Shown here piece after piece: positions 1,035 to 45,599 of a DNA stretch of 45,599 nucleotides; position 1 is the stretch's first letter, and each line of letters begins with the position of its first letter. The notes below the pieces were generated by a model. That model made no database searches. It saw only the letters and a list, made by a program, of their open reading frames with translations, and had not been told where the DNA came from. The position numbers were made by a program, and so were the translations under genes. Where the stretch lies: NCBI GenBank assembly GCA_035540895.1, contig DATLFR010000057.1:1-45599 (forward strand). Reading direction: 5' to 3'. The DNA is from Actinomycetota bacterium (lineage in GTDB: Bacteria > Actinomycetota > JAICYB01).

Positions 1035-1088
1035 ATGCGACGGGGCGTCGTGAAATGCCCCGTCCGACTACGCACCGGAGGTACACCC

Positions 1089-1808
1089 ATGTCCATGGTC
1101 ATCGACCGCATAGAGGAACTGAAGGCGAAGATCCCCACGGAGGTCGTCAACGAGCTGGCCGACGGACCCCTCTCCCGCGTTATGCGCCGCCAGACCTGGC
1201 CGGACCACGCCCGGGCCGAGTACTCCGACTTCGAGCAGGCCCTCGTGAAGGGCACGCTCTCGAAGGAGGGCTACCTCGACCTGCTGGTACAGGTGCTGCC
1301 CGTGTACGAGGCGCTCGAGGCGCGCGCGGAGGAGCTGCGCGACGACCCGGTGGCCGGTCCGATCGTGATCGACGAGCTCAACCGGACCACCGCCATCCGA
1401 GCCGACATCGATTTCTACAAGCAGGTCACCGGCACGACCGAGCTCCCGGAGATCCTCGAGGTCACCCAGGAGTACGTGGACCGGGTCCGCAACTCGACGC
1501 CCGAGCAGTTCGTGGCGCACCACTACACGCGCTACCTGGCCGACCTGTCCGGGGGCGTCTTCATCGACCGCGCGCTGACGCAGGCGTACGGGCTCGAAGG
1601 GACGAACGGCCGCGCTTACTACGTCTTCGACGAGATCGAGGACGCCAACCTCTTCAAGGACGCCTACCGCGGCACCCTCGACCAGCTCCCGCTCGACAGG
1701 GACGGCAAGAGGCGGATCATGGAAGAGGTCCTGCTCGCGTACGAGTTCAACATCGAGATGGTGGAGCAGCTCGGGGTGAAGCACCTCGAGCCGGCTGCCA
1801 CGGCGTAA
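1089..1808 (+). CDS. heme oxygenase (HO-1/HmuO family), paralog A
   Basis: The 239-residue all-helical protein matches the biliverdin-producing heme oxygenase family, which cleaves heme to biliverdin, CO and Fe2+. His40 (in TWPDHARAEYSDF) sits where the proximal heme ligand is expected. The distal helix reads HHYTRYLADLSGG; Asp152 corresponds to the catalytically essential Asp140 of human HO-1. One change is visible: the first glycine of the GDLSGG motif is Ala151. A strong GGAGG precedes ATG 1089. It is the first gene of an operon with a second heme oxygenase-like gene 11 bases downstream and a cupin gene overlapping that one. The physiological substrate could be heme or a related tetrapyrrole; this is not settled by sequence. 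Confidence 0.85.
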   Translation: MSMVIDRIEELKAKIPTEVVNELADGPLSRVMRRQTWPDHARAEYSDFEQALVKGTLSKEGYLDLLVQVLPVYEALEARAEELRDDPVAGPIVIDELNRTTAIRADIDFYKQVTGTTELPEILEVTQEYVDRVRNSTPEQFVAHHYTRYLADLSGGVFIDRALTQAYGLEGTNGRAYYVFDEIEDANLFKDAYRGTLDQLPLDRDGKRRIMEEVLLAYEFNIEMVEQLGVKHLEPAATA

Positions 1809-1819
1809 GGGGAGGGCAC

Positions 1820-2566
1820 GTGGCGGACAGCAACGCCGGGGCCCCCGAGGCCCCGGCTGCCGCCCCGGCCGAGGAGACGCTGGCGAAGCGGCTCTTCGGC
1901 GGGAGCTCGGTCATCCACCGGGAGGCCGAGCGGCGTCCGTTCATGGTCCAGTTCCTCAAGGCCCAGCTCCCCCAGGACGCCTACGTCGAGTGGCTGAAGC
2001 GTCAGTCGTTCGTCTACGCCGCCCTCGAGGAGACCGACCGTGCGCTTAAGGACGACCCGGTCGTCGGGCGCATGCACTCCCCGGAGCTGTACCGGACCGA
2101 CGCCATCGATTCCGACCTCCGCTACTTCGTCGGACCCGACTGGCGCTCGACCGCGACGTGCACGCCCGCCACCCAGGCGTACGTCGACCGGATCGCCTGG
2201 GCTCGTGACGGGTTCCCGCCCGCGTACGTCGCGCATCAGTGGTTGCGCTACATGGGCAACATGCTCGGGCAGGAGATCCTGCGCAAGATCCTCGAGCGTG
2301 CGTACGGGCTGACCGAGGAGGGGACGAACTTCTACCGCTACCCCGAGGTCGGCGACCCACGGACCTTCCTCGGCGGATACCACGCGAGGCTGAACTCCAT
2401 GCCGCTCGGCGACGAGGAGGCCCAGAGGTTCGTGGACGAGGGCACGGAGGCGTTCAGGCTCAACATCGCCTTGACCGACGAGCTCGGACGGGACTTCGGG
2501 ATCGGCGAGTTCTCCGCCGAGGAGACCGAGGCCATCATCGAAGAGCTCGCCGCCGAGCATCCGTGA
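1820..2566 (+). CDS. heme oxygenase-like protein, paralog B with degenerate distal helix
   Basis: This 248-residue protein starts with GTG after GGGGAGGG. After a 20-residue Ala/Pro-rich leader it follows the heme oxygenase fold from end to end. His33 (SSVIHREAE) fits the proximal ligand. The distal-helix signature is altered: GNMLGQ at 146-151 replaces GDLSGG, so the key aspartate is Asn147 and the second glycine of the pair is Gln. In human HO-1, loss of this aspartate abolishes oxygenase activity. The protein may bind heme without opening the ring, run other chemistry, or partner paralog A. The next gene overlaps its stop by GTGA, indicating translational coupling. Confidence 0.75.
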   Translation: MADSNAGAPEAPAAAPAEETLAKRLFGGSSVIHREAERRPFMVQFLKAQLPQDAYVEWLKRQSFVYAALEETDRALKDDPVVGRMHSPELYRTDAIDSDLRYFVGPDWRSTATCTPATQAYVDRIAWARDGFPPAYVAHQWLRYMGNMLGQEILRKILERAYGLTEEGTNFYRYPEVGDPRTFLGGYHARLNSMPLGDEEAQRFVDEGTEAFRLNIALTDELGRDFGIGEFSAEETEAIIEELAAEHP

Positions 2567-44378: not shown

Positions 44379-45599
44379 CTACTGGACCGGCTCCACGTCG
44401 TACCTGGCACGCCAGGCGTCGAGCCCGCCCTGCAGGGCCGAGGCCTGCACGCCGAGCTGGATCAGTCGCCGCGCCGCACGGGCGCTGGTCGCCTCGTCGC
44501 GTCAGGTGCAGTACAGGACGACCGGATGGTTCTCGAGGCGCTCACGGGCCCACTCGTCGACCTGGTCGGGAGGCACTCGGACGTCCCCCGGGATCCGGAC
44601 GCCGTCGTGCTCGTAGGACGAACGGGAACGGACGTCCATCACCACGGGCGGTGCGGGAGACGCGAGCAGGGCCGCGAGCTCCTCGACGGTCGTCCGGGGG
44701 ACGTCCGGGTCCGGACCCTCGAACAGCCCCGTGGCGAGCGATGTCCTCTCCTCGGAGAGGGTCGTCTCGGCGAGGCGCGCCGCGTACCAGGAGGAGAGCG
44801 GCGTCGCCGAGGCGCCGTGCGCGAGCACGGACACCACCACCACCACACCGGTGGCGGCGAGCAGCCGGTCGGAGCCGGGCACGTCCGCGTGGACCACGAT
44901 CAACGCGAACAGGAGCGAGTTGAGCCCGCGGGGGCCGAACCAGGCGATGAAGAGACGAGCGCTGCGCGAGAGCGCCCGGGACCGCGCGACCAGTACGGCG
45001 CCGATGGCGAGGGGCCGGATGACGACGATGGCGAGTACGGCGAGGAGCACCGCAGGCCCTACGGGCACGAGCGGGATCTGCGTGGACAGCAGCGCGCCGA
45101 AGAGGACGAAGGCGACCAGCATCGACATCTCCGCCGCCGACTCGCCGAACTCGAGGAAGCAGTCGCATAGCGACTGGTTCAGCACGGTGACGGCCAGACC
45201 GCCCGCGAAGGCGGCGAGGAAGCCGTCCCCCCCGACCGCGACCCCCGCGACGTAGGCGGCCAGGACGAGCCCCACGCCGAACAGGGACTGGTAGGTGCGA
45301 CGGATGCCGAACGCCGCGTCGGCACGCGACATCAACCAGGCTCCCCCGGCTCCCACGGCGAACCCGGCGGCCGGGCCCACGACGAAGAGGCTGAGCGCGA
45401 ACCGGGCCCATCCTCCGACCCCGCCCACCTCCGCGTTGGCGACGGCGACCAGGACGAGGATCACGGGCAGGACGACAACGTCGTTCGTGCCCGCCTCGAT
45501 GCCGAGCGCGGCTCGCACCGAGCGCGGCAGCCTCCGGTCGCGCAGCACGTCGCGCAGAACGACCGGGTCGGTCGAGGCGAGGATCGCTCCGAGCAGCAG
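44379..45599 (-). CDS. CPA1-type cation/proton antiporter fused to rhodanese domain with in-frame TGA (candidate selenocysteine), 5' end missing
   Basis: The gene runs off the window's right edge. Upstream sequence shows CPA1 antiporter hallmarks: GAILASTDPVV at the edge and GTNDVVVLP further on, then about ten membrane segments. A rhodanese domain follows from about 44740 downward (PVVMDVRSRSSYEHDGV). At 44504-44502 the reading frame meets TGA right after LYCT. The frame then continues without change to TAG 44381-44379, giving 40 residues that match a rhodanese C-terminus (RDEATSARAARRL, then ALQGGLDAW). Relatives usually have Cys where the TGA is (YCTCP). A hairpin at 44485-44471 could serve as SECIS. 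A nonsense mutation or base-call error is the alternative. Confidence 0.72.
44471..44485 (-). promoter_or_regulatory. possible bacterial SECIS hairpin
   Basis: Read on the minus strand, GCGCC and GGCGC pair around a 5-base loop CGUGC whose second base is G. The loop begins 21 bases after the TGA. Bacterial SECIS elements have a short stem, a G in the first two loop positions and a distance of about 16-37 bases. The stem is short, so it could also be chance in a GC-rich sequence. Confidence 0.4.
44502..44504 (-). other. in-frame TGA, candidate selenocysteine codon
   Basis: The TGA directly follows codons for Leu-Tyr-Cys-Thr and is followed in frame by conserved rhodanese sequence. The position corresponds to the second Cys of the CxC active-site motif, so the motif would be Cys-Thr-Sec. 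Confidence 0.6.

Follow-up and report, generated by a model that had tools for sequence, protein, structure and literature searches.

A probable selenocysteine-containing fusion of a CPA1-type antiporter and a rhodanese, with a conserved SECIS hairpin, in bacteria of several phyla

The window, i.e. the whole stretch of DNA analysed here (45,599 nucleotides), represents an entire contig (C57) of an Actinomycetota genome of 2.64 Mb in 245 contigs. At its far end, an antiporter frame on the minus strand runs from 45599 to a TGA at 44504-44502, located right after ...VVLYCT, and continues for 40 more codons (RDEATSARAARRLIQLGVQASALQGGLDAWRARYDVEPVQ) up to a TAG at 44381-44379. When the TGA was read through, two Pfam domains were detected in the window protein, namely Na_H_Exchanger (1.5e-26, residues 1-269) and Rhodanese (8.8e-10, residues 304-398), the latter match containing the TGA. 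The preliminary description of this DNA had proposed an antiporter-rhodanese fusion with an in-frame TGA after LYCT and an open frame to the TAG, and both the frame and the two domains confirm it. The main features are as follows.

44379..45599, minus strand: 3' portion of the antiporter-rhodanese gene, from residue ~126 onwards; its 5' part lies at C83:3-371
44793..45599, minus strand: CPA1 Na+/H+ exchanger domain, C-terminal two thirds (PF00999, 1.5e-26; MjNhaP1/PaNhaP fold in the model of a homolog)
45567..45572, minus strand: TD of the STDP motif, NhaP cation site, conserved in fusions and generic CPA1 proteins
45480..45485, minus strand: ND motif, NhaP cation site, conserved in fusions and generic CPA1 proteins
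45159..45167, minus strand: Cys-Asp-Cys where TM10 begins, on the predicted cytoplasmic side; possible partner motif for the Cys-x-Sec of the rhodanese
44406..44690, minus strand: rhodanese domain containing the TGA (PF00581; NF041203 at 4.4e-22, under its cut-off)
44508..44510, minus strand: invariant canonical rhodanese Cys (C of C-x-U), by alignment to solved rhodaneses (85/85 fusions)
44502..44504, minus strand: in-frame TGA, almost certainly a selenocysteine codon (75 of 85 homologs have TGA, the other 10 Cys)
44471..44485, minus strand: predicted SECIS hairpin, with arms at 44485-44481 and 44475-44471 and the loop (CGUGC) at 44480-44476
44379..44381, minus strand: TAG, the true stop when the TGA is read through; homologs stop ~41-62 codons past the Sec column

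The gene is cut at the end of C57, and its first ~125 residues are encoded on another contig of the same genome (G000:C83:3-371, minus strand); in our reading, the two contig ends appear to join in frame across five common bases, CTGCT. The tetranucleotide composition of the window correlates closely with that of the contigs carrying sel genes (r 0.97-0.99). Among the rhodanese domains detected in the source genome, the antiporter fusion alone holds an internal stop. Elsewhere in the window, a 503-aa ORF (1055-2566, plus strand) contains a heme oxygenase domain at residues 275-474 (6.5e-49), and no Pfam match at 1e-10 was obtained for its first ~270 residues.

Homologs were collected by scanning 84,980 species genomes with two patterns ([SET]LCDCFLE and EM[SAT]ML[LV]AF) and by a phylum search, which together gave 85 distinct fusions with a readable codon at the column of interest. 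This codon is TGA in 75 fusions, TGC in eight and TGT in two, and no other codon was observed; with 75 of the 85 homologs carrying TGA and the remaining ten a Cys codon, the part following the TGA cannot be a product of chance. The rhodanese pattern that had been noticed past the TGA is borne out, and the homologs do not all stop at this position. Fusions with TGA span Chloroflexota, Thermomicrobiota, Actinomycetota, Acidobacteriota, Gemmatimonadota, Myxococcota and one metagenome-assembled genome (MAG) labelled Armatimonadota, and the Nitrospirota members read have Cys at the Sec column. Most of the sources are MAGs, and three records are at chromosome level (CP046147, CP126532 and CP070630). 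On an unrooted maximum likelihood tree, the Sec/Cys label changes at least four times and the Cys members are split into four groups; the natural reading of this unrooted tree is that Sec was repeatedly replaced by Cys across the family. One further fusion (L026, G042 C163) is missing ~120 or more residues from the middle of the antiporter with its frame intact, which may be due either to assembly collapse or to a real deletion.

The preliminary description had also pointed to a short hairpin 21 bases past the TGA and proposed that it fits the geometry of a bacterial SECIS element. Such a hairpin, GCGCC-CGUGC-GGCGC (44485-44471), is present where it had been placed, 16 nt separating the TGA from the stem and the 21 nt being counted to the loop. 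Its CGUGC loop, 5-bp stem, 21-nt spacing and folding energy of -7.9 kcal/mol agree with the bacterial SECIS model as quoted in PMC13188914. A complete 5-bp stem is found in 73 of 74 TGA members, whereas synonymous recoding according to each sequence's own codon usage (1000 trials) kept the hairpin in a mean of 4.2 and a maximum of 12 of the 74. Covariation was found as well: stem pairs have changed in a compensatory manner from C-G to U-A in two sequences and from G-C to A-U in two others. Constraint at synonymous sites is strong in codons 6-10 after the TGA, where the observed codons far exceed their expected numbers (AGC 72/74 vs 18, GCC 63/64 vs 26, CGT 60/74 vs 8, GTG 46/46 vs 21, and GCG 68/70 vs 28), whereas codons 1-5 and 13-15 show roughly the expected numbers; synonymous fixation is thus confined to the hairpin. 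Cys members are without these hairpin codons, five pairs of some kind still being possible in four of the ten. Folding of the single sequence gave no unusual stability for the hairpin region (z = -0.19) and Rfam returned no convincing family match for it, and the significance of the hairpin comes from the comparative test only. In four related Cys fusions from Anaerolineae and one MAG labelled Bacteroidetes (L055, L056, L060 and L062), an imperfect hairpin follows the Cys codon, possibly a relic SECIS left after replacement of Sec by Cys.

A search of the source genome for the Sec machinery, which had been suggested as a check, identified selA, selB, selD and tRNA-Sec. Both selB (355.9 bits, cut-off 242) and selA (524.8 bits, cut-off 268) are located on contig C138, and tRNA-Sec on C213 (76.3 bits) was also called by ARAGORN as tRNA-SeC with anticodon tca. 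SelD (380.6 bits) has one in-frame TGA, in MTEAIRLTAYSHGAGUACKLG; this gene (L165, G000 C144:5853-6776, minus strand), with its TGA in SHGAGUACKLG, represents a second selenoprotein gene of the genome. By our count, selA was detected in 28 of the 32 genomes that carry TGA fusions, in 5 of the 10 that carry Cys fusions and in 24 of the 37 phylum background genomes, and at least one of the four TGA-fusion genomes with no selA match is a 75%-complete MAG. Because the background is high, the presence of selA discriminates only weakly between Sec and Cys genomes; its distribution agrees with the Sec reading and is not strong evidence by itself.

A second selenoprotein family came to light during this analysis, consisting of a rhodanese and a CBS domain (~237 aa) with the motif YCxDxxU-D-[ML]-S-x-R-A-A. 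One of its genes (L025:3489-4199, minus strand; G046 C77:27618-28328) lies just upstream of the antiporter-rhodanese gene in genome G046. TGA was present at the column in all 30 fetched members (L186-L215). Downstream of it, a hairpin of the type GGGCCGCGUGGCGGCUC is strongly conserved, and its compensatory variants include GCUGCGUGGCAGC. The 2026 review of prokaryotic selenoproteins gives the U-x-x-S motif for its rhodanese form 1 and makes no mention of the CBS fusion (PMC13188914). No strong match to this family was detected in the genome of the window. A rhodanese-CBS gene with TGA is present at L213 (G002 C23:21079-21729) in G002, a genome from the family of the window's genome, in which selA was not found (94% complete); either selA was missed by the assembly, or Sec is no longer made, or is made differently, in this lineage.

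Regarding the protein itself, a full-length homolog from G046 (63% identical to the window protein) was modelled with AlphaFold2 from a 56-row alignment (pLDDT 88.5, pTM 0.84). The model predicts a helix bundle, with 13 membrane helices by our count, followed by an alpha/beta rhodanese, and its best PDB matches in Foldseek are MjNhaP1 and PaNhaP, with KefC also matched over ~520 columns. The typical form of the rhodanese loop is C-[T/A/S]-U-P-x-E-A-T-S-A-R, in which the first Cys is invariant (85/85) and falls on the YC of solved rhodaneses when aligned; Sec follows at +2. The earlier proposal that Sec occupies a redox Cys position holds in that some homologs have Cys at this column, but the canonical catalytic Cys is kept and Sec lies two residues further on. 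A second motif, C-x-C, is found at the start of TM10 with both Cys in all 85 fusions. This count carries some bias, since C-x-C formed part of one of the two scan patterns; both Cys are also kept in members from the unbiased protein search and in members with C-Q-C or C-E-C. In generic CPA1 proteins (n=13), Cys is not among the commonest residues at the second position of this motif and the pair was not seen. If the N-terminus lies outside and the Arg-rich loops inside, the helix count would place the C-x-C on the cytoplasmic side, together with the rhodanese.

Taken together, the antiporter-rhodanese gene almost certainly encodes a selenoprotein in which UGA 44504-44502 specifies Sec. Comparative evidence supports Sec decoding as well as the presence of an antiporter that keeps its cation-site motifs and of the two conserved thiol/selenol motifs, and our description as a whole, i.e. 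a Sec-containing antiporter-rhodanese whose gating step is inferred, is very likely to hold. By the same evidence, a 13-helix CPA1 (NhaP-type) cation/H+ antiporter carries a C-terminal rhodanese, predicted to be cytoplasmic, and the UGA is decoded by SelB and tRNA-Sec with the aid of the SECIS hairpin at 44485-44471. In the mechanism that we propose, the Cys-x-Sec of the rhodanese loop may react with sulfane sulfur, peroxides or electrophiles to form a persulfide or selenenylsulfide, and might then exchange with the Cys-x-Cys at the cytoplasmic end of TM10, thereby toggling cation/H+ exchange. Such a redox-gated antiporter would resemble the glutathione-gated KefC but would operate by thiol/selenol exchange. 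Gating of this kind, with the rhodanese C-x-U acting through the C-x-C, is plausible, although somewhat short of probable; the invariance of the C-x-C in fusions together with its absence from the generic CPA1 proteins, the predicted cytoplasmic location of both motifs and the Foldseek match to KefC all point in its direction. It is about as plausible that these proteins form a widespread, unnamed class of cation/H+ antiporters gated by a Sec-rhodanese sensor of reactive sulfur/selenium or peroxide. In the gene neighbourhoods of the fetched fusion loci, we found no conserved partner and none hinting at the signal or substrate.

Rhodaneses act as sulfurtransferases and Sec is mostly found at catalytic sites, which raises the possibility that the rhodanese of this selenoprotein is instead a membrane-tethered enzyme for sulfur/selenium transfer or for peroxide or thiol reduction, the antiporter providing its location or local pH and ion conditions and no gating taking place. 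Retention of the rhodanese-loop Cys beside Sec would fit such an enzyme, and a related rhodanese domain annotated within a DedA family/GlpE membrane protein on a Burkholderia plasmid implies that membrane tethering of rhodaneses recurs. However, this explanation leaves the fusion-only retention of the antiporter C-x-C unaccounted for, and no sulfur-metabolism genes recur in the neighbourhood; we consider it possible, and only slightly less likely than gating. A selenium switch appears unlikely. Decoding and termination compete at UGA in known selenoprotein genes and the antiporter lies entirely upstream of the UGA, so that selenium could allow synthesis of the full protein and its shortage yield a form ending at YCT, which would lack the end of the rhodanese and differ in transport activity; yet the ten Cys homologs do without any switch, and a regulated stop alone would need no Cys at the column. 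Although the source is a fragmented MAG in which a contig end interrupts the gene, a miscalled TGC/TGT or a decaying pseudogene with a real stop is extremely improbable in view of TGA in 75 independent homologs, three of them at chromosome level, and the conserved SECIS, and a read error is untenable because independent assemblies carry the same codon. Genome-wide reassignment of UGA, e.g. to Trp or Gly, would likewise give an in-frame TGA, but is just as improbable, as TGA ends six of nine checked genes in the window and the homologous residue is Cys, never Trp or Gly. Read error, pseudogene and reassignment were thus all rejected on the TGA/Cys column of the homologs and the ordinary TGA stops in the window.

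We compared the Sec-containing fusion with known systems. The CxU rhodanese selenodomain has already been catalogued as form 3 (PMC13188914). The corresponding model, NF041203 (rhodanese_LYCAU, 'rhodanese-like domain-containing protein form 3', CxU), has the same rhodanese fold and a Cys-x-Sec loop with Sec and Cys forms, and is matched by all 56 aligned fusion members; the window protein scores 78.1 bits, under the cut-off of 115, and has the Cys-x-Sec/Cys loop. However, NF041203 is a stand-alone model of 126 residues, whereas the window protein has an antiporter in front. This antiporter shares the 13-helix fold and the TD and ND motifs with CPA1 NhaP proteins (MjNhaP1, PDB 4czb; PaNhaP, 4cz8), and with an Na_H_Exchanger domain, the NhaP fold and both motifs it falls within CPA1/NhaP, exchange activity being predicted. 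In contrast, NhaP and NhaP2-type antiporters have neither rhodanese nor Sec, and the C-x-C pair was unseen in generic CPA1. PRK05326 (NhaP2/CvrA K+/H+ antiporter) is weakly matched by all 56 members, its cut-off of 355 being reached neither by the truncated window protein (112 bits) nor by the full-length homolog (146 bits). KefC (PDB 8bxg, 8by2), a glutathione-gated K+/H+ antiporter, likewise combines an antiporter with a cytosolic regulatory domain, but it belongs to the CPA2 family, has a nucleotide/glutathione-binding domain instead of a rhodanese and contains no Sec. TsoB (rhodanese/DsbD fusion-like) and the YeeE/YedE Sec transporter are also listed selenoproteins (PMC13188914), with other transporter folds, other Sec motifs and no NCBIfam match to the window protein. 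A tblastn search against plasmids returned matches to the rhodanese part only.

No NCBIfam model spans the antiporter-rhodanese fusion, and an antiporter-rhodanese selenoprotein is absent from the open-licence papers searched, which suggests that its domain architecture is new and that it may form a functional class of its own among selenoproteins. Where a role can be guessed, the prokaryotic selenoproteins catalogued to date are mostly redox enzymes, and neither 'antiporter' nor 'exchanger' is used in the 2026 review (PMC13188914). An annotation obeying the ordinary rules for stop codons would shorten the gene by 41 codons, and both Sec and the last third of the rhodanese would be lost. Dozens of bacteria, belonging to several phyla, retain the UGA and its RNA signal in this protein family, which appears to be without a name. 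A Sec-containing antiporter maintained over several phyla would represent a new role of selenium, in the control of ion transport, and C-x-U and C-x-C provide a defined two-motif hypothesis that is open to mutagenesis. If true, gating by a Sec-rhodanese would tie the pH and cation balance of the cytoplasm to sulfur/selenium chemistry.
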